Shown here one piece after another: positions 34,556 through 57,945 of a DNA stretch of 63,074 bases (its first letter is position 1; every line of letters begins with the position of its first letter). Position numbers and translations under genes: made by a program. The DNA comes from Oscillospiraceae bacterium. Its GTDB lineage: Bacteria; Bacillota; Clostridia; WRLR01. Below the pieces are notes generated by a model. The model searched no databases, was not told the origin of the DNA, and saw only the letters and a list, made by a program, of their open reading frames with translations. The stretch is taken from contig WRLR01000008.1 in NCBI GenBank assembly GCA_009777515.1, positions 1 to 63,074 of the forward strand, written 5' to 3'.

Positions 34556-35410
34556 TCAAGCCCTGGACTGCATCACCTTTCTCATGAGCATCGCCCCCGC
34601 CTCGTTGGGGGTATCGGACCTCTTTATCTGGTAGTCCAATGGGCTGATGACCCTGCGGGCCTGCGCCAACTGGAACGCGGCATTGTTATACTCATTGGCG
34701 CCTTTTCCGCACTCGACCGCCCACACGCCGGCATAGCCTGCCTCCGCCAGGGGCGGCAACTGCTTGTCGGCATTCACGCAGGCGTCATAATGCAAATGCA
34801 TGTGCATGGCCTTGGGTGCAATCTCCAGGTCACAGGCATCCTTTTCGTCCTGGGTTTCGCACTGCCAGTTGCCCAGGTGCAGCAGCACGGCAAAATTTTT
34901 CGCCTTGACCGCCTGGTACAGCTTGCGGATCACTTTTATGTCTGTCGACGCGCCCCAATGGTTCTCCGTCCCCAGCTTCGCGCCGAACCCGTCGACTGCG
35001 GAGCAGTACTCGTCATACTTTTTCGCGCAGTGCTCAATCTGCTCGTCGGTGGCCTGCCTGGGCCCGATCCCCATATCGATGCGGACCGTCTCGGCGCCCA
35101 ATACCCGGGCAGCTTTCAACACGTTCTGCGCATTTTGGGTGCATAGCCTCTCTTCTTTTTCGTCGTCGTTCCACACATGCGCAAAGTCGCAGCACAGGTT
35201 CACCAACGACAGGCCGCGCTCGTCCATTTGCGCCTTGACCATTGTCAAATAGTCGTCCTCGTAGCTTGCGAGCATAGGGCTCCAAATATCAGCGGTCGAG
35301 AGTCCGTACCGATATCGGACAGTTTCAAAATACTGGATCAAATTCATTGCGCCATTGCTGAACAGTCCATTGAACGAATACGCAGCAATAGAAAAACGTG
35401 GTTGTGCCAT
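34556..35410 (-). CDS. Sugar phosphate isomerase/epimerase (TIM barrel)
   Basis: Xylose-isomerase-like TIM-barrel protein of the AP endonuclease 2 superfamily. Visible are FSIAAYSFNGLFSNG at the start, ETVRIDMGIGPRQATDE, GTENHWGASTDIK with a likely metal-binding Glu-His pair, MHLHYDACVNAD, and AVECGKGANE near the end. The exact reaction is unknown. The ATG follows GAGAGG by 6 bp, and a strong promoter lies upstream (35457-35485). It is 119 bp upstream of the Nif3-like gene on the same strand. Confidence 0.88.
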   Translation of the reverse strand: MAQPRFSIAAYSFNGLFSNGAMNLIQYFETVRYRYGLSTADIWSPMLASYEDDYLTMVKAQMDERGLSLVNLCCDFAHVWNDDEKEERLCTQNAQNVLKAARVLGAETVRIDMGIGPRQATDEQIEHCAKKYDEYCSAVDGFGAKLGTENHWGASTDIKVIRKLYQAVKAKNFAVLLHLGNWQCETQDEKDACDLEIAPKAMHMHLHYDACVNADKQLPPLAEAGYAGVWAVECGKGANEYNNAAFQLAQARRVISPLDYQIKRSDTPNEAGAMLMRKVMQSRA

Positions 35411-35438
35411 ATTGGTCCTCTCTTGAATAATTAATGGT

Positions 35439-35552
35439 TTATAGTATGATACAGATAAAATAGATTACATTACGTAAATTGTCAATGTTTATATTGTGTT
35501 CTATTAACCTTGACGTTGCATGCCCCAGCGCCTTCAGTTGCTCTTTTATCAT
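35439..35552 (-). CDS. Possible 37-residue leader peptide or truncated gene
   Basis: An ATG 7 bp after GGGAGG opens 37 codons (MIKEQLKALGHATSRLIEHN, then a hydrophobic FICIIL end). The good ribosome binding site suggests a real or formerly real gene. The isomerase promoter lies within its 3' half, so it may be a gene remnant whose 3' part was replaced. No family recognised. Confidence 0.3.
   Translation of the reverse strand: MIKEQLKALGHATSRLIEHNINIDNLRNVIYFICIIL
35457..35485 (-). promoter_or_regulatory. SigA-type promoter of the TIM-barrel isomerase gene
   Basis: TTGACA (35480-35485), 17 bp and TATTTT (35457-35462) on the minus strand, 47 bp before the start codon. The remaining 35486-35708 holds the mini-ORF 5' half and the terminator at 35655. 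Confidence 0.75.
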
Positions 35553-35654
35553 AATGGTGCCTCCCTTTCAATCTTCCGTGTTTACCATGCAACGCCACGA
35601 TTTTTGTCTCTGTGTTTTCCGCACTCAAATACCAAAACGGCGATTTTTGCGCAC

Positions 35655-35680
35655 AAAAAACCGCCCCGCAGGGAGCGGCC
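35655..35680 (-). terminator. Intrinsic terminator after the zinc-ribbon gene
   Basis: On the minus strand CCGCTCCC, a TGC loop and GGGGCGG are followed by TTTTTT. It lies about 30 bp past the stop of the gene at 35709 and marks the left end of the AT-rich island. Confidence 0.8.
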
Positions 35681-35708
35681 TTTTCATTGTTCTAATAGGT
35701 ATAATGGC

Positions 35709-35969
35709 TTAATCAGCCAGACCTTTAGCTAAATTACGTTCGCGTTCTTCCACTATAGCTTGTTCAATGCTTTTATATTTACGGTTTGGGGGTATAGATC
35801 CACAATCAACATGCTCTGACTCGGAACAATCATTACACCATATATCCAGACATGCTCGACCGCTTTTTTTCTTTATATATGTATAATCTGTATTATTACT
35901 TTTACAAAAAGGGCATTCACCAACTATGCCTTCTTTTATCAAAATCGATAAATTATTATTCCATTTCAT
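35709..35969 (-). CDS. Hypothetical zinc-ribbon protein
   Basis: An 86-residue protein with two Cys pairs, CPFC near residue 19 and CNDC near residue 46 (WCNDCSESEHVDC), suggesting a zinc ribbon. No family is recognised. It is AT-rich, unlike the genome backbone, and lies just downstream of the decayed toxin/immunity pair with its own terminator. It could be a second immunity or cargo gene of that cassette; this is inferred from position only. Confidence 0.6.
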   Translation of the reverse strand: MKWNNNLSILIKEGIVGECPFCKSNNTDYTYIKKKSGRACLDIWCNDCSESEHVDCGSIPPNRKYKSIEQAIVEERERNLAKGLAD

Positions 35970-36001
35970 TTTATTAGGCTCGCTTCATGATGCAATTTAT
36001 T

Positions 36002-36462
36002 TTAATTCTTATATGAATCAGTTATGTCAGCATAATAATCATCGCGAACTCCATCTAAAAAATATCTGATATATGGGGGATCGCTTCTTTCGATGATAGC
36101 TTACTCCCATTCTTCTTGTGCTTTTAGTAGTTGCTGTTGTTGATCATGATTTGCTTCCGGGTATTTTTCGAGAATATTCAATATATTCTGCCTTCCTTAG
36201 CCAATTCATTCCAGACCAAAATAATCATGCAATGATTGTTAATGCTTTTATTACGATGTCTTTATGAAAACGTTCAATGCTATACTGCGGCTTGCTTTGA
36301 GGTTCGCCATTGCAAAACAAATTATATGAATCTGTCCAATCTTTACCAGTCACCCGCTCATATTCTAAAAAATCGGACATTAGATTATCTTTACCATAAT
36401 GTTTAGCATATTGATATTCTTCACCTACTGTACTAGCCAAATCATATGCTAACAATGCTCAT
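36002..36462 (-). pseudogene. Decayed immunity-like gene downstream of the toxin remnant
   Basis: The ATG overlaps the toxin-remnant stop (ATGA). The first frame stops after six codons, then another frame continues for ~75 residues (LAYDLASTVGEEYQYAKHYG, TGKDWTDSYNLFCNGE). After further shifts come VWNELAKEG, NILEKYPEANHDQQQQLLKA, a TAA replacing a codon after AQEEWE, and RYFLDGVRDDYYADITDSYK. At least three frameshifts and one nonsense change are needed to join them. The family is not recognised; the immunity role is inferred from coupling to the toxin-like gene. Confidence 0.5.
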
Positions 36463-37293
36463 ACCCCCTCGAAAAACATTTTTTTAAAGACAATAATAAT
36501 AATATCATCTAATATACCATCAAATTCAGGTATTTCGATACAATTTGCCTTTAGATAACTCATATTTGCAAATATTTCTTGTGCCCGTGATTGAGAATCC
36601 CAATTTTTATGTCCATACTGTACCTTTATAATATTATTTGACAACGCGTTTAATATATCTTGAAATGCGGGATTAACATTGCCCAATGATTTATACAAAA
36701 TATTATATTTATTAATATCGCTTTTTATTTTATCTACAGCAATATTAATTGTACTAATAAATTCTTTATGCTGCCAAGATAAAATATTAAATAATCATAC
36801 CTATGTGCTAACTCGTGACTAAAAATCACATTAGCATTTTGTTGGAATTGTTTCAGTTTTAAAAATCTTTCATTGTATGTCAGAGCATCTTTACTAGGAT
36901 CATACCCAATTGGAGACATCTGTAATGGATTTAAGTATCTTTGTATGATCTGCGTAATATAAGTAAATACCTTTATATGGGTTGGGCATATTTTAAATAT
37001 GTCCCTTGAACTCATCAAGACCTTTTAACAATGATTTTTCAGCATTTATTAAAATGCCAGACTCACGCATTTGCTCTATCTCCATATTTGTTGGTTGGCG
37101 CTCATATATTTTTATTATACCATCTCCGTCCCCGCCGTCAACGTGCTGCGCCCTCCACTCATTATACTTCATTTCGGCGGGGACGCTGTAGGTCTCCCCG
37201 TCCCCTTCGCGGGCGGCGCGTTCGCTGCCGGTGGCGCCGTCGTCGAAGTATGGGGCGGTGGTGCAGCGGCACCAGGGGTGGAACGGGGGGGGG
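36459..37293 (-). pseudogene. Remnant of a MuF-type phage head protein with C-terminal HExxH toxin-like domain
   Basis: Frame A (37293-36993) reads PPFHPWCRCTTAPYFDDG and then YSVPAEMKYNEWRAQHVDGG, the signature end of SPP1-gp7/MuF head-morphogenesis proteins. A shift near 37000 leads to frame B, with YDPSKDALTYNERF and NVIFSHELAHRYDYL, an HExxH zincin motif. A second shift near 36782 leads to frame C (SWQHKEFISTINIAVDKIKS and on to FEGV, stop 36459). The MuF N-terminal part is missing: upstream lies a 9-C run, then unrelated sequence. The piece is AT-rich except for the MuF part. This is a broken phage-borne polymorphic toxin. Confidence 0.7.
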
Positions 37294-37588
37294 ATCTAAT
37301 AGGTATGAAAATAATTACAAAAAAAGAAGTCCCTTGAACTTCTCCTGGTTCTTATTCATAATTTTTAACTCATGCTTTTACCGTGGAAAGTTTATGGTTT
37401 AATACACAGTAGATTCGAAAAATTAAATTCATCTCTTTACAATTCCTTACACAACGGCGGAAATATTGCTTTGCGCATAAAATACTATATTTTGGTATAA
37501 TATAGATGGTGAATATAAAGTTGCGCGGGGATGTGCGGAAATTTGTGGGAACGCGTGGGCATCTGGCATATATGAAGGGAGCGTGGCG
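37294..37588. other. Gene-free junction upstream of the glycyl radical enzyme
   Basis: No gene was found. A TATAAT box near 37496-37501 with TTGCGC 19 bp upstream may be the promoter of the glycyl radical enzyme. The 9-bp G run at 37285-37293 marks the break point of the phage-derived piece. Confidence 0.4.
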
Positions 37589-39991
37589 TTGTTGACGATG
37601 TTGAGGACGAACGAACGTGTTAGGGAGATAAATAAGAGCATCAGGAGCAGTATGCTGCGGCAAAAGCATGGGGGGCCAGGCGCCGGGAGCGTACTATCGT
37701 TGCCGGGGGCGGACGGTGAGCCTCTCATTGTGAGGAACGCGCTAGCCGTGAAGATGAAGCTCTCAACTGTGCCCATTGCGATATGGCCGGGCCAGTTGAT
37801 TCCCGGCAGCATAGCGCTTCCCGGCAGCGACGTTCTGCTTTGCGGCTCGCTGCCCGAATATGCGACGCCGAACGAAGTGGCCGCTGCGGCCGCGAGGGGC
37901 ATCGGCGTCGGTTCCATAGTCGGCCACATCGCCCCATCGTATCCCAAGCTGCTAAAAAAAGGCGCGTCAGGCATCAAGCGGGACGCGGAACGCTACATAC
38001 AGACGTTGCAATCGGAGGGCGCGGGGGGTGTGGCGGGCGCGGGGGGCGCGAGGGGCGCGGAAGGTTCGGAGAGTAGGAAAAGCACTGCGGGCGCGGCGAG
38101 AGCGGGGGACGCAGAAGGCTCTATAGCGTTTTACCGAGCCTGCGCCATTGTGATGGAGGCGCTGGAACTGTTCGCGCACAGGCACGCCGCCCTCTGCGAA
38201 GAGCTTGCCGCAGGGGAAGCGGGCGAGGTAGACGCTGAAAGGTGCGCGGAGCTTGCCCGCATGGCCGCCGACCTGCGGGTCGCGCCGGGCGGCCCGCCCG
38301 AAACGTTCACTCAGGCCGTGACTGCCATATGGCTTACGCACCTCGCGTTCCAGCTCACCGGCAACCACCTCGCGATCGGGCGCTTCGACCAGCATGTATA
38401 CCCATATCTCGAAGCCGATCTGGCAAACGGAACCATTACAATGGACGAGGCGCAGGAGATCGTCGACTGCTTCTTCCTCAAATTCAACGAGCGCTCCGTG
38501 GACAACAGCATCCCCTACCAAAACACCGACTTTGACAAGGCGCGGGAGCGCAACGAGGCCAAATGGGCCGAGCGCACTCCGTTCGACCACAGCACCCAGC
38601 GCGTGAACGCTCGCGACAATGTGGACGCGACCAACCATTGGCTGCAGAACGTCATCATCGGCGGCACGAAACCGGACGGGGGCGACGCCGTCAACGCGGT
38701 CACATACATGTGCCTCGATGCATTCGACAAGAACCGCATGACCAACCCGTGCCTCACGGTACGTCTGTCATCCGGCTCCCCGGACGAAATATACAAAAAG
38801 AGCTGCGAGACATTATTAAACGGCGGCGGGCTGCCGGCATTTTTCAACGACGACGCGATCATCCCGGCCCTTGTAAAATGGGGCATCGCCATCGAGGACG
38901 CCCGCGACTATACGAACGACGGCTGCTGGGAGATCATCATCGCCGGGCAGAACGATTTTTACTTCGACCGCTTCAACATGCTACGCTGCCTCGAATGGGC
39001 GCTCAACAGGGGCAAGAGCCGCGTCGACGGCAAGCAGGAGGCGCCCGACCCGGGCGATGCGGCGGCGTTTGCGACGTACGATAAAGTATACGGTACTTTC
39101 CTTGACGAACTGTTCTTCGAGTTGGATGGGCTTATGGCCAAAAACCACCGCGAATTTGGCAGCCGGTACGGCATAGCGCCCGTGCCGCTCCTGTCGGCGC
39201 TGTTGGCGGGGCCGATGGAACTGGGCGACGACATGACCAGGGCCGGCGCGAAGTATGTGACTTACGGGCTGATCGCGGAGGGTGTCTCCCATGTGATCGA
39301 TTCGCTCGCCGCTATAAAAAAAGTGATATTCGAAGACGGCGCCGCCACAATGGCAGAGTTGATAATGGCGCTGGACGACAATTTCGAGGGGCATGATGCG
39401 CTCAGGGCCAAGCTCCTCGCCGCACCGAAATACGGCAGGAACGACAAGTACGCCGACGATATTGGCAAAGACGTGTTCGACATGTTCGCCGAAAAAGTGG
39501 CGGAGCTCAACAAAAAATACACCAACATGATTTTCCTGCCGGGCGCGGGTACGTTTTCATGGTACATCGCCATCGGCGAGGGCTGCGGGCCGTCGCCCGA
39601 CGGGCGCCTCGCCAACGAGGCGGTCAGCAGCAACCTGTCGCCCTCGACTGGCGCGGCGACGCGGGGCGTCACCGGCTCCATACTGTCGCACGCGGCGTTC
39701 GACATGGGCAACCTGCCCGTCGGCTCGCCGACCGACCTGCGCCTCTCGTCAAAGCACGTGGAGGGCGAGGCGGGGATGGCCCGGTTGATCAGCATCGTGA
39801 AAAGCTTTGTATCGCTGGGAGGGAACATGCTGACGCTCACGATAGCGGACACGGGTCTGTTGAGGAAGGCGCAAGCCGAGCCGGAGAACTACAGAGACCT
39901 CCGTGTGCGGATGGGCGGCTGGTCCGCGTATTTCACCATGCTCTCGAAAGAGCAACAGGAGCACCACATAAAAAAAGAAGAAGAGGTATAG
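37589..39991 (+). CDS. Glycyl radical enzyme (pyruvate formate-lyase family), substrate unknown
   Basis: Oxygen-sensitive radical enzyme. The Gly-radical motif is VRMGGWSAYF near the C-terminus. The thiyl Cys lies in YTNDGCWEIIIAG; the Cys-x-Glu pair resembles the dehydratase/lyase group (GCVE) more than true PFL (CC). GGGLPAFFNDD and SPSTGAATRGVTG are also family marks. A Gly/Ala/Arg low-complexity stretch lies near residues 145-180. A TTG 7 bp after AAGGGAG is the likely start; a GTG 6 bp earlier and an ATG 9 bp later are alternatives. No radical SAM activase is encoded nearby, although one is required. Confidence 0.93.
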   Translation: MLTMLRTNERVREINKSIRSSMLRQKHGGPGAGSVLSLPGADGEPLIVRNALAVKMKLSTVPIAIWPGQLIPGSIALPGSDVLLCGSLPEYATPNEVAAAAARGIGVGSIVGHIAPSYPKLLKKGASGIKRDAERYIQTLQSEGAGGVAGAGGARGAEGSESRKSTAGAARAGDAEGSIAFYRACAIVMEALELFAHRHAALCEELAAGEAGEVDAERCAELARMAADLRVAPGGPPETFTQAVTAIWLTHLAFQLTGNHLAIGRFDQHVYPYLEADLANGTITMDEAQEIVDCFFLKFNERSVDNSIPYQNTDFDKARERNEAKWAERTPFDHSTQRVNARDNVDATNHWLQNVIIGGTKPDGGDAVNAVTYMCLDAFDKNRMTNPCLTVRLSSGSPDEIYKKSCETLLNGGGLPAFFNDDAIIPALVKWGIAIEDARDYTNDGCWEIIIAGQNDFYFDRFNMLRCLEWALNRGKSRVDGKQEAPDPGDAAAFATYDKVYGTFLDELFFELDGLMAKNHREFGSRYGIAPVPLLSALLAGPMELGDDMTRAGAKYVTYGLIAEGVSHVIDSLAAIKKVIFEDGAATMAELIMALDDNFEGHDALRAKLLAAPKYGRNDKYADDIGKDVFDMFAEKVAELNKKYTNMIFLPGAGTFSWYIAIGEGCGPSPDGRLANEAVSSNLSPSTGAATRGVTGSILSHAAFDMGNLPVGSPTDLRLSSKHVEGEAGMARLISIVKSFVSLGGNMLTLTIADTGLLRKAQAEPENYRDLRVRMGGWSAYFTMLSKEQQEHHIKKEEEV

Positions 39992-46107: not shown

Positions 46108-47439
46108 TTATGAAAAATGCTTGAACTGCGGGAGCCAGTCTTTTTGCGCTTCGAACATTTTGTTCACCATTTCCTGGATTTCCTGCATGGAGCATACGGC
46201 CGCAGTCAGCGGGTCGTACAGGCAGGCGTGGAAAATTTTGCGGGGGTCGCCTTCCAGGGAACCCTGGACGGCCAATTCCTCGCAGCGCGCGTTGGTGTTG
46301 ACCAGCACCGCCAACTGCTCCGGCAGGTTGCCCACATGTATGGGCGACAGGCCGCGCTTGTTCGCGAATACCGGCACCTCGACGCAGCAGCCTTCCGGCA
46401 GGTTGTCGATGAGGCTCCAGTTGCGTACGTTCCCGTTGAACTCGAACGTCTTCATATCTCCGAACACCGCGTTGAAGATATAGGCCGCGTATTCGTGGCC
46501 GCGCGTGAGGTCGATCTCGCCCTCCATCCAGGTCTTGAACGCGTTTATCCGCCGCTCGTCGCGGTTGCCGCTGAACATGCTCGCGCGCTTCATCGAGTCG
46601 AGGCCCGGGTTCCAGCCCGTGCCGTGCGTGCAGTATTTTTCGAGCAGGTCCTCGCGCTTGCGGAACCAGGCGTTGTACTCGCTGTTGTGGCCGGACGACT
46701 CGGTGACATAGTAGCCCAGGTGGATGAACATCTCGTTGCGCACCTGCTCTTCGTTATATATCTCCGGCTTCTTTACAGCCTCGCGTAGCAGCGGGTACGC
46801 GTCTTTGCCCTTCCATTTGTAGTCCAGATAGAACGCCTGGTGGTTGATCCCCGCGCACACGAAATCGACGTCGTCCATGTCCGCGCCGATCCACTTGGCC
46901 AGCATCTCCGCAGTCCCCTGCACGCTGTGGCACAGACCGCTGGTGCGCACCCTCGGGGCGACTTCCTGCATCGTGCGGCACAGCATGGCCATGGGGTTGG
47001 TGTAGTTCAGGAAAATCGCATCCGGGCAGTATTTTTCGATGTCCTTCACGATATCCAGCATGACGTTCACGGTGCGTAGATAGCGGAAAATGCCGCTGGG
47101 CCCGCGCGTGTCGCCGACGCAGATCGAGCAGCCGTATTCGGTGGGTATCGCCCTGTCCGCCCGCATGATGTCGGCGTCGCCGACCGCGATTGTGCACAGC
47201 ACCCCGTCGGCGCCGACCAGCGCCTCTTTGCGGTCCGTCGTCGCCTGCACCGTCGCGCCGTATTTGCCGACCTCGATGATTTTCTCCACGACGGCCTTGG
47301 CCTGGGCCAGGTTCGCCTCGGAGATGTCGACCAATGATATGACCGCGTCGGAGAAGGCCGGGAACGTGAGGATGTCGCGCACGAGGTTGCGTGTAAATGT
47401 TACGGAACCCGCGCCTATGAATACTATTTTTCTTGGCAT
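46108..47439 (-). CDS. GH4 family glycosidase (alpha-galactosidase/alpha-glucosidase type), copy 2
   Basis: NAD- and metal-dependent hydrolase that acts through oxidation at C3. IGAGSVTFTRNLVRD is the dinucleotide site, SLVDIS the acid loop, NYTNPMAM the sugar site; the metal ligands are Cys in GLCHSVQGT and His in CAGINHQAFYL. 443 residues. It is strongly similar throughout to the gene at 51028. It is the last gene of the sugar-uptake operon, cytoplasmic, and probably cleaves the imported sugar. The exact specificity cannot be fixed. Confidence 0.92.
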   Translation of the reverse strand: MPRKIVFIGAGSVTFTRNLVRDILTFPAFSDAVISLVDISEANLAQAKAVVEKIIEVGKYGATVQATTDRKEALVGADGVLCTIAVGDADIMRADRAIPTEYGCSICVGDTRGPSGIFRYLRTVNVMLDIVKDIEKYCPDAIFLNYTNPMAMLCRTMQEVAPRVRTSGLCHSVQGTAEMLAKWIGADMDDVDFVCAGINHQAFYLDYKWKGKDAYPLLREAVKKPEIYNEEQVRNEMFIHLGYYVTESSGHNSEYNAWFRKREDLLEKYCTHGTGWNPGLDSMKRASMFSGNRDERRINAFKTWMEGEIDLTRGHEYAAYIFNAVFGDMKTFEFNGNVRNWSLIDNLPEGCCVEVPVFANKRGLSPIHVGNLPEQLAVLVNTNARCEELAVQGSLEGDPRKIFHACLYDPLTAAVCSMQEIQEMVNKMFEAQKDWLPQFKHFS

Positions 47440-47521
47440 GGTGATACTTCCTTTACATTTATTTTGCCTGGATTAAATATAGCCGTTGTTCCGGAATCAT
47501 CCGGAACAGCGTGCCTATAAA

Positions 47522-49189
47522 CTATTTCTTTTTCGCGTTGTACGCCGCTGTCGCGAACTCTTCGAACTTGGTAATGCCGCGGCGCTCGTACTCGGCGAGC
47601 AGGTCGGCCATCATGGTTTCTATCTTTATGGGGTCGCTCTCCATGATCAGTGAGGTCATCTGGCTGCGTATGTTGGCCTCGATCTCGGCGAGCAGTACGC
47701 CCTCATCCGTATCCGGGTCGATCATGATCGCCACGAGGAGCGAGCCGTCGAATGTGTGTACGTTGGCCATCTGGCGGTTATTCATACGGTCCGGGCTCTC
47801 CTGCGTGCGCTCCCAGTTGTACTTCTGATTATTCATCATGTCGAATATGCGGATGCCGTGCCTTAACGCGCCGCCCCGCGAGTCTTCGAGCTTGTATTCA
47901 TACGCGAAGTCGTAGAGCCACGGGTTACCTTCGTCGTCAAAGTACATCGAGTCGCCCTCTGTGCCGTAGAAGTTGAGCGTTTCGCCCTCGGGGCTCATAA
48001 AGAAGTCGATGAAGCCGATAGCCGCTTCCGGGTTCTTGCAATTCTTGGTTATCATAGTGCCCGAGCCGCCCATCGTGGTGTAGGAACCGAAGTACGGCTC
48101 CACACCCGGCGTCCCTGCCGGTGGGAATATTGTAGCATAGTACATTTCCGGGTCCACTGCGGTCAGCGCCGCCTTGATGTCCCACCACAGGCTCCAGCAG
48201 TGGCACACGACAACGCCATATTTGCCCGAGGTCCACGCTTCCCCGCGCTGAGTCGTGTCAAATGTCAGCGTCTCCGGATCGAGGTAGCCCTCCACAAGGC
48301 ATTTGGACAGGAACTTTACTGCCTCCGTCACATTGGGGTGGCGCAGGAAGAACTCAACCTTTTCCTCTTCTTCATTGTAGTACATGCAACGGCGTATCTG
48401 GCTTCCCCACCAGTTGGCGATGTAGCCGATGTTGTCGCGGTCGTTGTGGTCGTAGTTGAACGCCCAGACATTCAGGCCGTCGGGCGTCGTCATGTTCAAA
48501 TCCTTAATTTCAGCAAAGTAATCCAACAATTCGTCGACCGTCTTAATCTCCGGGGACCCCAGTTGCGTGTAGATATCGTTGCGCACGTTCACGCACAGGC
48601 CGGTCGCGCCGAAGCCGTCTTCCGAGAACCAGTTGGGCGCGAGATAAAAATTGCCGTCGGGTTCGGTGCGGATCCGGATGACGTCCTCATAGATATATGT
48701 CCCGTTCGTGAGGTTGGGGTGGCCGTACTGGTCGGCTAGCTCATTGATAGCATACAGGGCACCTGCCGCGATATACTTGTTGTATGTGGCGTTCGCGCTC
48801 ATATGCATCATCTCGGGGTAGTCGCCCGAGGCGAGCATGACGTTGGCTATCTGGTCGCCGTCGCCCTGCGGCGCGGAGCAGATCATCCGGACGCCCGTCT
48901 TCTCCATGAAAACTTTCGTGACGGGGTCGTCGCCGAAGATAACGGGCACCCATGTCTGCGACATGTTCATAAACTCGATGTCGATGAGGTCAAGCGGGGC
49001 CTCCTCTTCGGCTGCCGCCGCTGTCGTCTCTGCGGCCGCCGCCGTCGTGGCCGCCGCAGCAGTAGTCGTTGCAGCAGCCGCCGTTGTCGCCGCCGCAGTG
49101 GTAGCCGCAGGCGCCGACCCGCCGCACGACGCCAGCATGGCCACGACAAGCAAGAGCGCCGACAGTTTAAGTGCATTTTTAACAGTCAT
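47522..49189 (-). CDS. ABC sugar-binding lipoprotein, copy 2
   Basis: Extracellular solute-binding protein of the LplA-like group. A signal peptide ends in the lipobox LASC (Cys22), then an Ala/Thr linker (TTAAAATTTAAAA) of ~45 residues anchors the two-lobe domain, which starts near IDIEFMNMSQTW. EYKLEDSRGG and RIFDMMNNQKYNWERTQESP lie near the end. 555 residues. It pairs with the LplB/LplC-like permeases to the right. No ATPase gene is in the locus, as is common for this type, which shares MsmK/MsmX-like ATPases. Confidence 0.92.
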   Translation of the reverse strand: MTVKNALKLSALLLVVAMLASCGGSAPAATTAAATTAAAATTTAAAATTAAAAETTAAAAEEEAPLDLIDIEFMNMSQTWVPVIFGDDPVTKVFMEKTGVRMICSAPQGDGDQIANVMLASGDYPEMMHMSANATYNKYIAAGALYAINELADQYGHPNLTNGTYIYEDVIRIRTEPDGNFYLAPNWFSEDGFGATGLCVNVRNDIYTQLGSPEIKTVDELLDYFAEIKDLNMTTPDGLNVWAFNYDHNDRDNIGYIANWWGSQIRRCMYYNEEEEKVEFFLRHPNVTEAVKFLSKCLVEGYLDPETLTFDTTQRGEAWTSGKYGVVVCHCWSLWWDIKAALTAVDPEMYYATIFPPAGTPGVEPYFGSYTTMGGSGTMITKNCKNPEAAIGFIDFFMSPEGETLNFYGTEGDSMYFDDEGNPWLYDFAYEYKLEDSRGGALRHGIRIFDMMNNQKYNWERTQESPDRMNNRQMANVHTFDGSLLVAIMIDPDTDEGVLLAEIEANIRSQMTSLIMESDPIKIETMMADLLAEYERRGITKFEEFATAAYNAKKK

Positions 49190-49222
49190 TCTTTTCCCCT
49201 TTCGAATAATTTTATATTTATA

Positions 49223-50971
49223 CTATTTTCTTAGGTTGTAGAAATCGGAGGCGTACGACTCCAGTTTGGCTATGCCCCGGCGCTCGTACTCCGCGAGGGT
49301 GCTGCCCAGCATGGACTCGATCCTAGCCGGGTCGGCTTCCATGATCATCGACGTCAGCTCGCTGCGGATGTTGGCCTCGATTTCGGCGAACAGTATGCCT
49401 TCGTCTGTATCCGGGTCGATCAGTATGGCCGATAGGAGGGAGCCGTCAAACGCCGTATCCATGGCTATCTTGCGATTGTACTGGCGGTCCTCGGTCTCCT
49501 GCGTGCGCTCCCAGTTGTACTTGGCGTTGTTCATCATATCGAAGATGCGGATGCCGTATTTTAGCCCGGCGCCGCTCCAGTCGATGAGCTTCTCCTCATA
49601 CGCAAAGTCGTACAGCCACGGCGCGCCCGCTTCATCAAAATACATGGCGTCGCCCTCGACGCCGTAGAAGTTCAATATTTCGCCTTCCGGGCTGAGGAAA
49701 TAGTCGACAAAGCGTATCGCCGCTTCCGGGTTCTTGCAATTTTTCGTGATCATGGTCCCCGAACCGCCGATGGTGTGGTAGCGGCCGAAATACGGCGTCT
49801 TGCCCGGCGTGCCTTGCGGCGGCGGGACGCTCACATAGTACATCTCCGGATCGATAGCCGTCGTCGCCGTCCTGACGTTGGCCCACAGGTTCCAGCACTC
49901 GGTCAGTATGACGGCATATTTGCCCGTGCTCCAGGCTTCAGTTTGCTGCGTCGAGTCAAATGTGAGCACTTCGGGGTCGAGGTACCCGTCCCTCAGGCAC
50001 GCCGACAGGAACTTGACCGCTTCCAGCACGTCCGGGTTGCGCAGGAAGAAATCGACCGTTTGGGTGTCCTCGTTATAATACATGAAACGGAAAATATTGC
50101 TGCCCCACCAGTTGGCGATGTACCCGATGAAGTTGCGGTCGGTATGGCCGTACGCGAGCGGGTAAACGTTCAGGCCGTCGGGCGTTTTGAGCTCGAGCGA
50201 CTTGACCTCGGCGAGGTAGTCCAGCAGGTCGTCGACGGTCTCTATGGTCGGCGAACCCAACTGCGTGTAGATGTCGTTGCGCATGTTCACAGCCGTGCCA
50301 ACCGAGCCGAAGCCGTCGTCCGAAAACCAGTTCGGCGCTATGTACAAAAGGCCGTCCTCCGATGAACGGACCCGCATGACGTCCTCGTAGATATTTGTGC
50401 CGTTAATGACATCGGGGTAGCCGTACTGCTCCGCCAACTCGTTCATCGAATAAAGCGCGCCGGCTGCCACGTACTTGTTTTGCGTGGCGTTGATGTTCAT
50501 ATGCATCATCTCCGGGTAGTCGCCGGAGGCGAGCATGACGTTGGCTATTTGATCGCCGTCGCCTTGGGGCGCCGAGCAGATCATTTTAACGCCGGTTTTC
50601 TCCATAAAAATTTTAGTGACGGGATCGTCGCCGAACACCACCGGCACCCACGTCTGGGACATGTTCATGAATTCGATTTCGACGAGCTCCTGTGCGTCGT
50701 CCGCGGCAGCTACAGTTGCGGCTGCCGCCGTTGTGGTCGCCGCTGCCGCAGCAGCCGTAGTCGCGGCGCCCGCAGCAGCTGTCGTCGTGGCCGCCGCTTC
50801 CGTCGCCGCCGCTGCAGCAGCCGTAGTGGCCGCCTCCGTCGCAGCCGCTGCAGCCGTTGTCGCCGCTGCGGTGGTCGCGGGCGGCGACGAGCCTGTGCAG
50901 GATGCCATCAGCGCTATCGCGAGCAGCGCTGCGGTGAATAAATACAAGCGTTTTCGGTTTACCGTTTTCAT
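49223..50971 (-). CDS. ABC sugar-binding lipoprotein, copy 1
   Basis: The second binding protein, similar to its neighbour along the whole length: the same IEFMNMSQTWVPVVFGDDPV opening and WERTQE near the end. The lipobox is LMASC with Cys25. The Ala/Thr/Glu linker is ~75 residues, made of repeated TTAAAA and TEAA blocks. 582 residues. It starts 34 bp upstream of the other copy, on the same strand. Two paralogues in one locus suggest different affinities or substrates. Confidence 0.92.
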   Translation of the reverse strand: MKTVNRKRLYLFTAALLAIALMASCTGSSPPATTAAATTAAAAATEAATTAAAAAATEAAATTTAAAGAATTAAAAAATTTAAAATVAAADDAQELVEIEFMNMSQTWVPVVFGDDPVTKIFMEKTGVKMICSAPQGDGDQIANVMLASGDYPEMMHMNINATQNKYVAAGALYSMNELAEQYGYPDVINGTNIYEDVMRVRSSEDGLLYIAPNWFSDDGFGSVGTAVNMRNDIYTQLGSPTIETVDDLLDYLAEVKSLELKTPDGLNVYPLAYGHTDRNFIGYIANWWGSNIFRFMYYNEDTQTVDFFLRNPDVLEAVKFLSACLRDGYLDPEVLTFDSTQQTEAWSTGKYAVILTECWNLWANVRTATTAIDPEMYYVSVPPPQGTPGKTPYFGRYHTIGGSGTMITKNCKNPEAAIRFVDYFLSPEGEILNFYGVEGDAMYFDEAGAPWLYDFAYEEKLIDWSGAGLKYGIRIFDMMNNAKYNWERTQETEDRQYNRKIAMDTAFDGSLLSAILIDPDTDEGILFAEIEANIRSELTSMIMEADPARIESMLGSTLAEYERRGIAKLESYASDFYNLRK

Positions 50972-51027
50972 TTTGATCTCCTTTCGGTTTCTATCAATGT
51001 TAATGTTGATGAACAGTATGAATATAT

Positions 51028-52344
51028 TTATGAGAAATGTTTAAACTGCACCAGCCAATCTTTTTGCGCTTCAAACATTTTGGTCACCATATCCTGTATC
51101 TCCTGCATTGAACAAATAGCCGCCGTCAGCGGATCATACAGGCATGCATGGAAAATTTTGCGCGGGTCACCTTCCAGTGAGCCTTGGACCGCAAGCTCTT
51201 CGCAATTGGCGTTGGTGCCGATAAGCGTCGACAATTGCTGGGGCAGTTTGCCCACATGCATCGGCGACAGGCCCCGCTTGTTTGCCAAAACAGGCACTTC
51301 GACACAACAGCCCTCCGGCAGATTGTCTATGAGGCTCCAGTTGCGCACGTTGCCGTTGAATTCAAAGAATGTCTGATCCCCAAAAACAGCGTTGAAGATA
51401 TAAGCGGCATATTCGTGGCCGCGCGTAAGATCAATCTCGCCCTCCATCCAGGTCTTGAACGCTTGCAAGCGGCGCTCCTCGCGGGACATGGATGCGAATC
51501 TGGCGAAGTTGGCCATGCGACTTGGGCTGCGCTTGCAATATTTTTCGAGCAAATCCGGGCGCTTGCGGAACCAAGCATTGTATTCGCTGTTGTGGTGGGA
51601 GGATTCGGTCACATAGTAACCTAAGTGTATGAACATTTCGTTGCGTACCAGCTCTTCGTTATAGATATCCGGTTTCGCGACGGCTTCCCTGAGCAGCGGG
51701 TACGCGTCTTTGCCTTTCCATTTATAGTCCAGGTAAAATGCCTGGTGGTTGATGCCCGCACATACAAAATCGACATCTTCCATTTCGGCGCCAATCCATC
51801 TCGCCAGCATCTCGGCAGTTCCCTGCACGCTATGGCACAATCCGCTGGTGCGCACCTTGGGCGCCACCTCTTGCAATGTGCGGCATATCATGGCCATGGG
51901 GTTGGTATAGTTCAAGAAAATCGCATCCGGGCAGTATTTCTCAATATCCTTCACAATGTCAATCATGACGTTAATGGTGCGCAGATAGCGGAAAACGCCG
52001 CTGGGCCCGCGCGTGTCGCCAACGCTGATCGAGCATCCGTATTCGGTCGGTATCGCCCTGTCTAGCTGCATTACTTCGTTGCTGCCCACGGCGATTGTGC
52101 AAAGCACCCCGTCGGCGCCGACGAGCGCTTCCTCGCGTTTCGTCGTCGCCTGAACAGTCGCGCCGTATTTACCGGTTTCGATGATCTTTTCCACCACCGT
52201 TTTAGCTAGCGCCAGATTGTCTTCGGATATATCCACCAAAGAAATAATGGCATCCGAAAAAGCCGGAAACGTGAGTATGTCGCGCACAAGATTGCGAGTA
52301 AACGTAACGGACCCGGCGCCAATAAAAACTATTTTTTTTGGCAT
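51028..52344 (-). CDS. GH4 family glycosidase, copy 1
   Basis: Shows the same motifs as the copy at 46108: IGAGSVTFTRNLVRD, NYTNPMAM, GLCHSVQGT and CAGINHQAFYL, with a slightly shorter C-terminal half (438 residues). The main differences are in the region around residues 280-300 (KRSPSRMANFARFA against the other copy's segment). It is the first glycosidase after the permease genes. Strong pairwise similarity suggests a recent duplication within this locus. Confidence 0.92.
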   Translation of the reverse strand: MPKKIVFIGAGSVTFTRNLVRDILTFPAFSDAIISLVDISEDNLALAKTVVEKIIETGKYGATVQATTKREEALVGADGVLCTIAVGSNEVMQLDRAIPTEYGCSISVGDTRGPSGVFRYLRTINVMIDIVKDIEKYCPDAIFLNYTNPMAMICRTLQEVAPKVRTSGLCHSVQGTAEMLARWIGAEMEDVDFVCAGINHQAFYLDYKWKGKDAYPLLREAVAKPDIYNEELVRNEMFIHLGYYVTESSHHNSEYNAWFRKRPDLLEKYCKRSPSRMANFARFASMSREERRLQAFKTWMEGEIDLTRGHEYAAYIFNAVFGDQTFFEFNGNVRNWSLIDNLPEGCCVEVPVLANKRGLSPMHVGKLPQQLSTLIGTNANCEELAVQGSLEGDPRKIFHACLYDPLTAAICSMQEIQDMVTKMFEAQKDWLVQFKHFS

Positions 52345-52389
52345 GCTAAGATATCTCCTTAATTTTAATATGCGTCCCTAATTATTAAC

Positions 52390-52565
52390 CCAGCAAGTAC
52401 AACAACCACAAATTTTTATATGGCACAAGCATTGTGCATTGCGGCGTCTCGGCTGCCACAATCTTTGCCCCAACTTATTATTCCAGTAAGCTCAACAACC
52501 TATGTGTTTCCTTGTGGCACAAGCATTGCGCATTGAGACGTCCCGACTGCCATAAACCTTAAAGC
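52390..52565. repeat. Two ~85-bp direct repeats between lplC and GH4
   Basis: CCAGCAAGTACAACAACC and, 85 bp on, CCAGTAAGCTCAACAACC start two copies. Each continues with GGCACAAGCATTGTGCATTG or GGCACAAGCATTGCGCATTG, then CGTCTCGGCTGCCA or CGTCCCGACTGCCA. They fill the 246-bp spacer. No gene lies within it. Confidence 0.75.
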
Positions 52566-52590
52566 GCAATGCGTCCCTGACTGTCCCTGA

Positions 52591-53487
52591 CTAGCCTTTC
52601 AGGGCGCCGACCATGGCGCCTTTGATGAAGTGCTTTTGAAATAGCGAGTAAATAAATATTATCGGTATTGTGGTTATCATAACCGTCGCGGCTCGGATAG
52701 TGGTGACATTGGTCCTCAATCGTTCGAGTAATTGCATTTCCATGGGATTTTCCGTCGATATCTGAGACAGCGATATAACGCGGTATAGATATGTCTGTAA
52801 CGGGTGCAGGTCTGTCCGTTTCGGCACGAACATGTACGCGTCAAACCATGAGTTCCATTGCCCTACGCCGGTAAATATACTGATAGTCGCAATTATTGGC
52901 ATAGCCAGCGGCATGATAACTTTCCACAATATTTTTAATGTGGACGCGCCGTCGATCATTGCCGATTCTTCAAGTTCAACAGGCAAATGTTCAAAATAGT
53001 TTTTCATTAGTATCATATTAAATGTACTCACCGCCGAAGGCAGGATATACACTAAAAAATTGTTAAGCAGCCCTATATCTTTGTAAAGCATGTACGTCGG
53101 TATTAAGCCTGCATTAAAGATCATTGAGATAACGCACACAGTAATATAGAATTTCCGACCGATGAGGTATTTTTTAGACAAGCCGTAGGCGAGACAACCT
53201 GTACATATAAGGCTCGTTATAATGCCCAATGCCGTTCGGCTAATCGTGATCATGTAGCCCCTAAGGATCTCGTTATCATTGAATACCGTAGTATAATTTT
53301 GAATTGTAGCCTTGCGGGGATAAAAATATATTCCGCCCCGCATGGCGTCGGTGCCCTCGCTGAAAGAGAGCGCCATGGTGTTGATGAACGGATAGATTGT
53401 AATAAAACAAATAATAAACATCAAAACGCTGTTAAAAATGAAAAATGCTTTTTCGCCCGGGGTTTTTATGAAGAATCTTTTTTCCAT
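52591..53487 (-). CDS. Carbohydrate ABC permease, LplC/YtcP-like
   Basis: Inner-membrane permease with about six helices. The ATPase-coupling EAA loop reads ELEESAMIDGASTLKILWKV with Gly. The N-terminal MEKRFFIKTPGEKAFFIFNS and the tail GAVKG-like end (HFIKGAMVGALKG) are typical. 298 residues; GGAGG precedes the ATG, 14 bp after lplB. Confidence 0.93.
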   Translation of the reverse strand: MEKRFFIKTPGEKAFFIFNSVLMFIICFITIYPFINTMALSFSEGTDAMRGGIYFYPRKATIQNYTTVFNDNEILRGYMITISRTALGIITSLICTGCLAYGLSKKYLIGRKFYITVCVISMIFNAGLIPTYMLYKDIGLLNNFLVYILPSAVSTFNMILMKNYFEHLPVELEESAMIDGASTLKILWKVIMPLAMPIIATISIFTGVGQWNSWFDAYMFVPKRTDLHPLQTYLYRVISLSQISTENPMEMQLLERLRTNVTTIRAATVMITTIPIIFIYSLFQKHFIKGAMVGALKG

Positions 53488-53501
53488 ATATTAGCCCTCC
53501 T

Positions 53502-54446
53502 CTACCAAAGGCCCATTTCAAAACGGTTGGCAAGTTTATTCGTAGTCATAATCATTATAAACCCCACGGCACTTTGGAAAAGCCCTACGGCGGTCGCATA
53601 ACCAAAACGCCCATTGACCAAGCCCATGTCATAAACATAAACGTCTAATATATTAGCGACTTCGTGAGTAATGGAATTGCGGAATACTAAAATTTGGTCA
53701 AACCCGGCGTTTAAAATCGAACCGACCCTTAAAATCAACATTATTGTAACTGTTGGCGCAATCGCGGGAATTGTGATCTTGAGCGTCTGTACCCAGCGGC
53801 TCGCGCCGTCAACGCGGGCCGCTTCGTAAAGCTGTGGATCGATGCTTGCTATGGACGCCATATAAATAATGGCGGACCACCCCATTTCCTTCCATATGTC
53901 CAAAATCACCATCATCGGCCAAAACAAACTCGGCATCCCGAGAAAATGGACAGGTTCGCTTCTCAGCCCCGTCGAAAGCATAAGGCTGTTGAGTACTCCG
54001 CTTTCCCGCGCTACGATGCCCCAAATTACACCGGAAATTACCACCCAGCTTAAAAAGTGGGGGAGGTATGAGATGCCCTGTACGATTGAACGGGTCCTAT
54101 GCGATCGCAATTCATTGAGTAGAAGCGCAAAAATAATAGGCATCGGGAAACCGATGCTTATCTTTAACCCGCTCAATGCCAATGTATTGAATAGAACCTT
54201 CGCCGCGTTTCCTGAAAAGAAAAAATCATTGAAATGCTTCATGCCGACCCAGCGCGCCTCCCAGATGCCCCTGCCCGGCAGCAGTTCTTTAAACGCGAGC
54301 TGCAGCCCGTATATCGGCAGGAAACGGAATACGACGATAAACGCTAGCCCGAACAGCACCATAATTTGCAAGCTGATCTGTTTGCGCAACCGGACGACAA
54401 GCGGCTTTTTCTTTTCGATGACTTTGCCTTGGATTGCTGTATCCAT
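53502..54446 (-). CDS. Carbohydrate ABC permease, LplB-like
   Basis: Partner permease with six helices, FLPIYGLQLAFKELLPGRGI before the second helix and the coupling loop LYEAARVDGASRWVQTLKIT. It has ~314 residues from the ATG after GGGGGCGGACA; an ATG 18 bp upstream would start 1 bp after the EQxQ mini-ORF. Together with lplC and the binding lipoproteins it imports an oligosaccharide, perhaps an alpha-galactoside or alpha-glucoside given the GH4 enzymes. Confidence 0.93.
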   Translation of the reverse strand: MDTAIQGKVIEKKKPLVVRLRKQISLQIMVLFGLAFIVVFRFLPIYGLQLAFKELLPGRGIWEARWVGMKHFNDFFFSGNAAKVLFNTLALSGLKISIGFPMPIIFALLLNELRSHRTRSIVQGISYLPHFLSWVVISGVIWGIVARESGVLNSLMLSTGLRSEPVHFLGMPSLFWPMMVILDIWKEMGWSAIIYMASIASIDPQLYEAARVDGASRWVQTLKITIPAIAPTVTIMLILRVGSILNAGFDQILVFRNSITHEVANILDVYVYDMGLVNGRFGYATAVGLFQSAVGFIMIMTTNKLANRFEMGLW

Positions 54447-54465
54447 TGTCCGCCCCCACTCCATT

Positions 54466-54615
54466 TTAATTTTGTGCTTGTTCTATCTGTGTTTGTTCTA
54501 TTTGTTCCTGTTCTTGTTGTGTTTGTTCTATTTGTGCTTGTTCTATCTGCGCCTGTTCTATTTGTTTCTGTTCTCGTTGTGTTTGTTCTTTCTGTTTGTC
54601 TATCAGATGTGTCAC
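54466..54615 (-). CDS. Small Gln/Glu pentapeptide-repeat ORF (49 residues) before lplB
   Basis: From a GTG, 49 codons read MTHLIDKQ followed by eight pentapeptides of the form x-E-Q-x-Q (KEQTQ, REQKQ, IEQAQ, IEQAQ, IEQTQ, QEQEQ, IEQTQ, IEQAQ) and a stop. The stop is one base before an in-frame ATG of lplB. Gln codons alternate CAA and CAG while the protein pattern holds. No Shine-Dalgarno is visible, so it may be non-coding 15-bp repeat DNA. As protein it would be a continuous polar helix. Confidence 0.35.
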   Translation of the reverse strand: MTHLIDKQKEQTQREQKQIEQAQIEQAQIEQTQQEQEQIEQTQIEQAQN

Positions 54616-54670
54616 TATTTTTCGGAATTATATCACATTATTATACGATTATCCATAATAAAACTAAATC

Positions 54671-56155
54671 TTATAAACTGTAAAAATACGGCGCGAACGG
54701 GGTGTCGCGCTCGTCCGGGACGTCCGCGTATATGCCAGTGTAGCGGCAAAACTCCTTCAGGCGTGCCACCAGGCGCTCGCCGCCCTCGATCTCGACCATG
54801 TGGTGGACATACGGCCCGTACATGACTGCGGACTCGAATTTTTTCCAGTCCTTGAACTCGCCCCATATATACGGCCCCCGGGTGAACGGCCCTTCGACGC
54901 CTTTATAGTTCCCGAGCAGCATGGCGTACTTGCCGTCCATGCAATCGAATCGGCCAATGGTGTATGTGCCGCGAGCGATTTCATACCCGCCGGAAGAGCC
55001 GCGCGGGCCGGAAACGATATACGGTTTTAGCAGGTCGTGGCCGGCGATGGACGGCGGGAAGACATTCATGTGCCAGAGGAGCTCGGCGTTCGGGTTCGTC
55101 GGGTGGTTTACCGTGAACTCTGCGAAATAGGGGAGCTTCTCGCCGAACGTGGCAGAGGACATCAGGATCATTTGGATCGCAGCGTGCATGTCCGACTCAT
55201 ACGCGACGAAATTGTTTTCTTCGTTGCACAGCGCCATGTCAAAGCCGGCGCCGACGCCCAGGGCCCTGGCAAATGAAGCGTCCGCGCTGATGGCGGAACA
55301 GCCTGTTGTTTTAAACAGTTCCGTGTAGAACAGGTATACTGCGGCGCTTTTGCGCAGCGACTCGTCGTCGCCTCCGTCGCCGCCGGGGTAAAACGCGCGA
55401 ATCCTGTCGACGATGGGGCCCAGTTCGCTCTGGCGCTTTTCATAGATTTCCATCAGCGCGGCCGTGGCTTGCGTGGCGGTGTATGGGAACACCTCAATGC
55501 CGAACTTTTCAAGCAGCTCGTCCTCGTTAAATATCATGCTGGTAAAGAGCTTGGGGCGGTTGCCAAGCTGCAGCAGGCGCATGTTCTTCCAGTTCTTGAG
55601 CATGCATGCCACAGCCGTAAAGTCCTCAAAGGCCTCTTTGAAGCAGGGGTCGTCCACTTTGCATGTCGGGATGTGGGTGAACTTGACATGGAAGCGCTGC
55701 AGCAGCTTCGAGACAGCGAACAGTCCGCACTGGGCGTCCAGCAGCCGCTGGCCGTACAATGGGTTCTCCACGCGCGCGTCCTCGACCTCTCCGAACTCCA
55801 CGTCTTGCGGCGCCCAAATGAGCGTGGGGACGTTGCAAAGCTTGCCAAGCTTGCCCGCGACCTCTTCGTCGCCGAAGTTGATGTTCACTATGAACAGCGC
55901 GTCGATCTTCTCCGCGATGAAGCGGTCCGCGATGGCGCCCGCCTGCTCGTACTCGTACATCATGCCGTCATCGCTCAGCCATTCCAAATCGACGAACTCG
56001 ACATGCTCGTTGGCGAAATTTTTGAGTATGTAGGGCATGACGATGTTTTTCATGTCCAGGGCCGCTTCCTTGCTCCAGATGCCGCCCGGCCTCATAAACG
56101 CGGAGACGTTGCGGCGACAGGGGGCTATCCCGATTTTTATTTTGTAGCTGACCAT
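54671..56155 (-). CDS. L-fucose/L-arabinose isomerase-like protein
   Basis: Likely aldose-ketose isomerase or a relative. It has the FucI/AraA-type Rossmann start (IKIGIAPCRRNVSAF), a middle region with PTLIWAPQDVEFG and RLLQLGNRPKLFTSM, and a C-terminal part with RGPYIWGEFKDW. 494 residues fits. Metal ligands could not be assigned with confidence. GGAG lies upstream of the ATG. It is the first gene of the operon, divergent from an FGGY kinase, a layout that fits a sugar isomerase-kinase pathway. Confidence 0.75.
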   Translation of the reverse strand: MVSYKIKIGIAPCRRNVSAFMRPGGIWSKEAALDMKNIVMPYILKNFANEHVEFVDLEWLSDDGMMYEYEQAGAIADRFIAEKIDALFIVNINFGDEEVAGKLGKLCNVPTLIWAPQDVEFGEVEDARVENPLYGQRLLDAQCGLFAVSKLLQRFHVKFTHIPTCKVDDPCFKEAFEDFTAVACMLKNWKNMRLLQLGNRPKLFTSMIFNEDELLEKFGIEVFPYTATQATAALMEIYEKRQSELGPIVDRIRAFYPGGDGGDDESLRKSAAVYLFYTELFKTTGCSAISADASFARALGVGAGFDMALCNEENNFVAYESDMHAAIQMILMSSATFGEKLPYFAEFTVNHPTNPNAELLWHMNVFPPSIAGHDLLKPYIVSGPRGSSGGYEIARGTYTIGRFDCMDGKYAMLLGNYKGVEGPFTRGPYIWGEFKDWKKFESAVMYGPYVHHMVEIEGGERLVARLKEFCRYTGIYADVPDERDTPFAPYFYSL

Positions 56156-56181
56156 TTTTTTCGGCTCCTTGAATCATTATT

Positions 56182-56253
56182 CGCAATATATAAAATGATA
56201 TGTTATCAAATTACAATATTTATATTGCGTGTACATATTATAACCTATATTAT
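56182..56253. promoter_or_regulatory. Divergent promoter region with CGCAATATA/TATATTGCG inverted repeat
   Basis: CGCAATATA (56182-56190) and TATATTGCG (56221-56229) are perfect arms; a second palindrome, CAATATTTATATTG, lies at 56212-56225. On the plus strand TTGCGT (56225-56230), 17 bp and TATTAT (56248-56253) form the kinase promoter; on the minus strand TTGTAA and TTATAT could serve the isomerase. The repeats overlap both, as an operator would. Confidence 0.6.
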
Positions 56254-56325
56254 GGATAAATAAATAAATTTGATGCAATGGCAACGTAAAAATCAATGAA
56301 AAATATGCATAGGGAGGATATAAAA

Positions 56326-57945
56326 ATGGCGCTGATTGGCATAGATGTCGGGGGGACAGGAGCTAAAGCGGTTGCTTACGCATATGACGGTACTGTTTTG
56401 AAGTACGCTTACAAAGAATACACAATGAAAAACCCTGAGCCGGGGGCATATATGTTCGATCCGCGCGAGTTGCGCGAGACGGTCGACAGCATTGTGCGCG
56501 AAGTCGTTATCGGCTGCGGGGAAGAGGTCGTCGGTATAGGCTGCACGACTTTCGGCGAATCGTTTGTCTGTTTTGACGGGGACGATAATATCATGTGCGA
56601 CAGCATCATGTATTTCGATACGCGCGGCGAGGACAGCATCAAGGAGTTTTCCGCCATTTGGCAGCCGGAAAAGACCCTTGAAGCATACGGGTTCCAGGCC
56701 CCGAACCGCATCAGCTCCTTGGTTAAAATGCATGTAATGAACAAAGCCGACCCGGGGTTTTTTAGCAGGGTGAAAAAGATTCGGATGCTGCCCGATTTTG
56801 TCCTGTCCGGCTACGGCGGGGGCCATATGTGCGACGATTCCATTGCCTCTACCACGGGCTGCTACAACTACAACACGGGCGAGTGGATCCCGGAGATGCT
56901 CAAATGGGCGGGCGTGGATCCGGCCATTATGCCGAAGATCGTGCCCATAGGGTCCATCATCGGCGAAGCCGGCGGCGGCGGGGCGGCCTGGGCAGGAGCG
57001 GGCGGCGCGGGCAGCACAGGCAGCACAGGCAGCGGAGCGGGCGGCGGAGCGGGTGGCGCAAGCGGCGGCGGCTGGGTGACCGGCGGGCTGGGCGCGATGC
57101 GCGGCGCCAAGCTCGTCCCGTGCGGGCACGACCATACGGCGGCGTCACTGGGCGTCGGCATGTGCCGCGCCGGGCAGATGATGAATGAGATAGGCACCGT
57201 CGATATAATGATGATGCTGATAGGCGAGGACGATCTGCCCAAGCTGGAAGCCATGGCGCAGTCCGGCGGCAGGAGGCCCATGCGCCCCAGGAGGCACGTG
57301 ACACGCGGGAACTACGTCATGGGCGCGGGCGGGGGCGGGCTGACGGGCGGCGCCATCCTAAAATGGTTCCGGGATCACTTTGGCTTATATGAGAAGGCCG
57401 AATGCGCGCGGGACGGGCTGAGCTTTTATGCCGAGTACGACAAAAAGATCCCCGCCGAGCCGACCAACCTCATCGTGCTTCCGCAATTCGGGACGGGCGC
57501 GCCAGGAAGGAACCAGATTGGGGGCATCCTCAACATGACCATGGCGACGACGAACGAGCAGATTTACCGCGCCTTTATGGAATGCCAGTCTTATGCGGTA
57601 TACACGGGCTTTAAACGTGTAAACGAAAATATGCGCAAGGTGGACGATATTATCGCGCTCGGGGGCGGCGCGAACAGCGCGGAGTACATGCAGATCCGCA
57701 GCGACGTATTCAACGTGCCGATAAAGACCACTATGACCGAACAAGGGGGGACATACGGCAGCGCGATGCTCGCCGGCGTGGCAGCAGGCATTTGGGGCAG
57801 CATAGAGGAGGCGATCGACGCAACGGTGCGCATCAATCAAGTGTTTGAGCCGAACCCCGCAAACCATGCCTACTACATGGAAATGTATGAAAAATACATG
57901 AAAGTCCAAAGCGCCGTAAACGACGCGCTGTACCCGCTGTCATAG
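56326..57945 (+). CDS. FGGY-family carbohydrate kinase with Gly-rich insertion
   Basis: Phosphorylates a sugar or ketose with ATP. MALIGIDVGGTGAKAVAYAY is the phosphate-1 loop, GCTTFGESFVCFD and IASTTGCYNYNTGEW lie in the first domain, and EIGTVDIMMM with GAGGGGLTGGAILKWFRDHF in the second. A ~35-residue Gly/Ala/Ser/Thr stretch at about 215-250 (GAGGAGSTGSTGSGAGGG) comes from 9-bp repeats at 56968-57070. The ATG lies 8 bp after GGGAGG. ~539 residues. It may act after the divergent isomerase. Confidence 0.88.
   Translation: MALIGIDVGGTGAKAVAYAYDGTVLKYAYKEYTMKNPEPGAYMFDPRELRETVDSIVREVVIGCGEEVVGIGCTTFGESFVCFDGDDNIMCDSIMYFDTRGEDSIKEFSAIWQPEKTLEAYGFQAPNRISSLVKMHVMNKADPGFFSRVKKIRMLPDFVLSGYGGGHMCDDSIASTTGCYNYNTGEWIPEMLKWAGVDPAIMPKIVPIGSIIGEAGGGGAAWAGAGGAGSTGSTGSGAGGGAGGASGGGWVTGGLGAMRGAKLVPCGHDHTAASLGVGMCRAGQMMNEIGTVDIMMMLIGEDDLPKLEAMAQSGGRRPMRPRRHVTRGNYVMGAGGGGLTGGAILKWFRDHFGLYEKAECARDGLSFYAEYDKKIPAEPTNLIVLPQFGTGAPGRNQIGGILNMTMATTNEQIYRAFMECQSYAVYTGFKRVNENMRKVDDIIALGGGANSAEYMQIRSDVFNVPIKTTMTEQGGTYGSAMLAGVAAGIWGSIEEAIDATVRINQVFEPNPANHAYYMEMYEKYMKVQSAVNDALYPLS

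Follow-up and report, generated by a model that had tools for sequence, protein, structure and literature searches.

Glycyl radical enzymes (GREs) catalyse some of the most difficult chemistry of anaerobic guts, and new pathways have been defined by several of those described recently. A CXE motif is conserved among GRE eliminases, in which the Glu usually acts as the base, and in the trans-4-hydroxy-L-proline dehydratase HypD both His160 and Glu436 are essential (PMC7077986). The activases of known GREs are described as dedicated ones (PMC8473560). Here we consider a GRE with Trp at the middle position of this motif, encoded in a 63,074-nt stretch of bacterial DNA that we call the window. The closest relatives, two Oscillospiraceae MAGs, bear isolate names (Th196 and Emb289) resembling those of termite-gut bins, and it is solely from these names that we take the bacterium probably to come from a termite gut.

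Gene structure and catalytic loops

The gene extends from 37583 to 39991 on the plus strand and encodes a full-length GRE with the two domains of the PFL-like superfamily, the PFL domain (PF02901, 434 bits) and the C-terminal glycine radical domain (PF01228, 46 bits), both above the Pfam cut-off. The protein has 802 amino acids, the numbering used here, when counted from GTG 37583, the first codon of the open frame; the start codon is ambiguous among this GTG, TTG 37589 (the start given in a preliminary description of the locus), TTG 37592 and ATG 37598. Upstream of the candidate starts lies a Shine-Dalgarno-like stretch, GAAGGGAG (37574-37581, plus strand), which makes TTG 37589 a reasonable choice. 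On its upstream side the gene adjoins a 2.17-kb AT-rich stretch (35410-37583; GC 0.36 vs 0.54 for the window) that holds short ORFs only.

Alignment to C433/E435 of glycerol dehydratase (GDH) and to relatives locates the Cys loop, NDGCWEIIIAG, in which G447-C448-W449-E450-I451 (38921-38935, plus strand) would comprise the thiyl-radical Cys, the eliminase Glu and a clade-marking Trp. The Gly loop, RMG-G779-WSAYF (M777-F784, MGGWSAYF; 39911-39934, plus strand), aligns with that of GDH and with the RVAGYSA loops of known GREs, which places the radical at Gly779. His115 (37925-37927, plus strand) is the aligned equivalent of GDH His164 and HypD His160. The Gly-radical loop and Cys-Trp-Glu site reported in the preliminary description are therefore both present, and the gene is real and intact, with all catalytic residues in place. 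The C-W-E motif is not a product of chance: every sub-type A, B, C or D relative that was checked has retained all three residues, and these are invariant in A1. An AlphaFold model (pLDDT 64, alignment of 8 sequences) has GREs as its top fold matches; its Cys and Gly loops are too poorly predicted for the active site to be modelled, and it confirms the fold only.

The gene stands isolated, with no adjacent activase, and carries a private Ala/Gly-rich insert of 33 amino acids (residues 147-179; 38021-38119, plus strand) found in no relative, as might a decaying remnant no longer capable of activation. We consider this very improbable, however, given a full-length frame, intact catalytic residues, a GC3 of 0.78 similar to that of neighbouring genes, and 73% identity across the length of the protein to its closest relative, L031.

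The C-W-E clade and its active site

All 20 W-bearing proteins in a set of 49 GRE rows form a single clade (support 100/98). This C-W-E clade was still recovered, at 98/95, when four long-branched rows and the columns of the Cys and Gly loops were dropped, and we therefore rejected the idea that it is an artefact of the motif itself. The window GRE belongs to sub-type A together with L031, L032 and L033. Sub-type B comprises L034-L037, L076 and C39, the last from the window's own genome; sub-type C comprises L077-L079, and sub-type D comprises L017, L018, L020, L022, L025 and L026. A further GRE of the same genome, C49, is a clade member listed apart from these four. The glycerol and propanediol dehydratases, YbiW, PflD, HypD, CutC and Archaeoglobus fulgidus PFL2 all lie outside, and no GRE of known function among those placeable on the tree falls within the clade; the PDB rows of this tree were transcribed from alignment output and may be off by a few letters, four of them represent C-terminal parts only, and the GDH row is one residue short. 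The N-methyl-hydroxyproline dehydratases, IslA, HplG and BssA/MasD were left out of the tree; their PDB scores to the window GRE are remote.

Profile searches agree with this placement. NCBIfam offers no characterised family for sub-types A, B, C, D or C49: the window GRE scores 174-346 bits against the equivalogs for CutC, HypD, HpsG, PflD, indoleacetate decarboxylase and hydroxyphenylacetate decarboxylase and 87 bits against PFL, where the cut-offs are 994-1150, and the other sub-clades likewise fall far below. A PDB search with members of A, B and D returned no close relative. In the phylogenetic comparison proposed in the preliminary description, made with two trees, the window GRE thus lies inside no characterised clade tested, which is in keeping with the suggestion made there that its substrate is not a known one. 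The same description set CWE apart from both the CC of PFL and the GCVE of dehydratases. The first distinction holds, CC being absent, but the second does not: as CXE is the eliminase signature, CWE is only a one-residue variant, with Trp for Val in CVE.

As judged from sequence, C-W-E is a real and uncharacterised clade of GRE eliminases that is marked by one Cys-loop residue. At E 1e-90, 391 sampled genomes of the same class yielded no further member beyond the window's genome, and two other families yielded six members in 397 genomes and one in 199, query genomes included. Cultured members are Ruminiclostridium cellobioparum and Eisenbergiella tayi. No paper on GCWE, GCVE or a GRE with malonate semialdehyde was found in a limited literature set. 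A clade that one Cys-loop residue defines, and that has cultured members and informative operons, lends itself to direct testing.

Alignment with GDH indicates that the equivalents of His164, Cys433 and Glu435 are kept in the window GRE and that, within the clade, only type A has retained the equivalent of Asp447. His281/Ser282 of GDH, which we take to be substrate contacts (structure 1r9d), are replaced by Asn and a variable residue in types A and B and in most members of D, with short deletions nearby. As the catalytic residues are retained and these contacts changed, the chemistry of the window GRE is probably eliminase-like, with a pocket differing from that of GDH, and its substrate, perhaps also its reaction, may differ as well. 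A more radical departure, in which the enzyme is a C-C lyase or decarboxylase, might be read from two traits of the clade, the Trp in mid-CxE and the shortened, altered substrate-binding strand (Asn261, deletions). We find this improbable, however: all clade members retain the catalytic Glu, the PFL-type CC is absent, and the PFL, HPAD and indoleacetate decarboxylase models give 87-242 bits, far under the cut-offs of 994-1150.

Activating enzymes in relatives and in the genome

The window itself holds no activase or activase remnant, as a tblastn search of its 63 kb with 35 activases gave no match with an E value below 0.01, and a credible CxxxCxxC is absent from all of its ORFs; these two checks ruled out an overlooked or degraded activase. 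Among nine near neighbours scanned with Pfam there was no microcompartment shell protein. The preliminary description had noted neither an activating radical SAM enzyme nor a microcompartment gene near the GRE, and both statements are borne out, the former for the whole window and the latter for these nine neighbours.

The relatives are organized differently. Wherever the flanks of a sub-type A or B relative could be read, the gene immediately upstream of the GRE encodes an activase (L031, L032, L034, L035, L036, L037 and L076/L084), and in most of these relatives the gap ranges from an overlap to 66 bp. A split gene in G393 has the activase followed by the start of a GRE on L069, the rest of which is most likely the sequence on L033 (97%, 146-aa overlap). 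Since activases adjoin the GREs of its type-A and type-B relatives, the C-W-E family is not an orphan one. The label 'orphan' used in the preliminary description, which had named adjacent activases in relatives as evidence to the contrary, is thus correct locally and incorrect for the family.

The window's genome encodes 18 GREs, alongside about 17 genes or gene fragments for activases. An activase is nearby for 11 of the 18 and absent for C1, C3, C8, C29, C39, C49 and C113. Several relatives of the same class have 15-20 GRE candidates each. The Glu of CxE is replaced in C3 (L061:6598-8742; GCNW) and C113 (L060:1919-4180; GCSQ) of this genome and in L021 (GCSQ), and these are therefore not standard eliminases. 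Another of its GREs, C135, forms a separate supported group with L015, L019 and L024, characterised by GCYE and by a Gly loop reading GWN or GWS.

One unlinked activase matches the clade. It is encoded at C158:6065-7051 on the minus strand, in the interior of its contig, and carries the FDIDHFAxHDGPGIRT signature of the A/B activases. It falls inside the A/B activase clade (99/99), where it groups with type B (100/99), whereas the remaining activases of this genome that the tree includes all lie outside; the tree left out the C19, C55 and C186 activases, each of which is next to its own GRE. Tetranucleotide signatures correlate with that of the window at r 0.945 for C158 and 0.90 for C39, compared with 0.85 or less for relatives, and this matching composition argues against either being a contaminant. 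The search for an unpaired activase suggested in the preliminary description has thus produced a candidate, and its proposal of a shared activase gains plausibility. As C39 of this genome encodes a type-B GRE, one activase may serve two GREs, and we infer that the C158 enzyme activates the C39 GRE and probably also the window GRE. The latter pairing is unproven because C158 groups with type B and the type-A activases (L031:491-1324 and L032:8938-9708) do not carry the pair of ferredoxin-like cysteine motifs seen in C158 and L034.

A competing arrangement is that a dedicated type-A activase lies in a part of the genome absent from the assembly, which consists of 272 contigs and is about 91% complete, and that C158 serves the C39 GRE only. 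The grouping of C158 with type B and the position of the type-A activase directly upstream in both type-A relatives with full flanks fit this arrangement. However, the window GRE is interior to a 63-kb contig and has 2.2 kb of activase-free DNA upstream, which means that the usual linkage has been lost at this locus in any event, and none of the six unlinked activases found in the genome is of type A. We regard a missing dedicated activase as unlikely, though a serious contender. A shared activase acting in trans, if true, would mean that the rule of a dedicated activase for each GRE needs qualification.

Predicted reaction and comparison with known systems

The window GRE has no surrounding catabolic operon. 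About 6 kb downstream, at 46111-57942, is a carbohydrate-uptake region with two GH4-like glycosidases, two solute-binding lipoproteins, LplB/YtcP-like permeases and an FGGY-like kinase, names mostly read from the sequence. The clusters of relatives are richer. Those of type B contain an ABC sugar importer, DhaK, DhaL, GH1, a ROK kinase and an AKR or NAD-dependent epimerase-like protein. A CoA-acylating methylmalonate-semialdehyde dehydrogenase (MMSDH), above the TIGR01722 cut-off, occurs in L034 and L037 (type B) and in L081 (type C), the last also with an aldolase, a PfkB-type kinase, a second aldehyde dehydrogenase and what read as transketolase halves. DeoC is present in the L083 cluster, and in L032 (type A) a sugar-acid-dehydratase-like enolase-family gene accompanies an MFS sugar transporter. 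The window's genome encodes an MMSDH on another contig, 67% identical to that of L037.

These sugar-import and polyol/aldehyde-catabolism clusters support a role as dehydratase of a sugar-derived polyhydroxy compound. On balance we favour the reading that the window GRE is such a glycyl radical eliminase, activated in trans, most likely by the C158 enzyme. The radical-SAM activase would take H from Gly779, and the glycyl radical would move to Cys448, whose thiyl radical would abstract H from the polyhydroxy substrate. Glu450, tuned by His115, would accept the proton of the neighbouring hydroxyl, and the beta-OH would depart as water to leave an aldehyde or ketone. The substrate would most likely be a sugar-derived polyol or sugar acid of carbohydrate catabolism. 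Conversion of glycerate to malonate semialdehyde would fit MMSDH, but this is speculation. A fuller proposal is that C-W-E is a new subfamily of eliminases that acts on an acid or polyol derived from sugar and supplies central metabolism with malonate semialdehyde or a DhaK/DhaL substrate (for example, glycerate to malonate semialdehyde to acetyl-CoA), and that one activase here serves at least two GREs in trans; taken as a whole we hold it to be rather unlikely.

The B12-independent glycerol/1,2-propanediol dehydratases (1r8w, 5i2a, 9rco) share with the window GRE the PFL fold, the C-x-E and Gly loops, the His164 equivalent and, in type A, that of Asp447, and DhaK/DhaL adjoin type-B genes. 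That the window GRE is one of these dehydratases with a drifted motif is nevertheless scarcely credible: they are only 29-31% identical to it and have Val where it has Trp, the His281/Ser282 pair of GDH is lost in it, and in the trees GDH and both propanediol dehydratases fall in another supported group. HypD (6vxc) has the CxE and the essential His equivalent in common with our enzyme, but the latter scores 345 bits against a cut-off of 1100, and Asp278 of HypD, Asp in HypD-like rows, is Asn in the window GRE. The best PDB sequence match is the choline trimethylamine-lyase CutC (9f3w, 5a0z; 315 bits), yet the NCBIfam score is 319 bits against a cut-off of 1050, and the window neighbours scanned include no microcompartment gene. 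YbiW and PflD are sugar-related GREs with CxE, crystallized with anhydrohexitol-6-phosphates (8id7, 8id0), but they are 28-29% identical to the window GRE and lie outside the C-W-E clade. A. fulgidus PFL2 (2f3o) resembles the window GRE in its GWS Gly loop and its DGCVEI Cys loop, but has Val in CxE and lies outside the clade.
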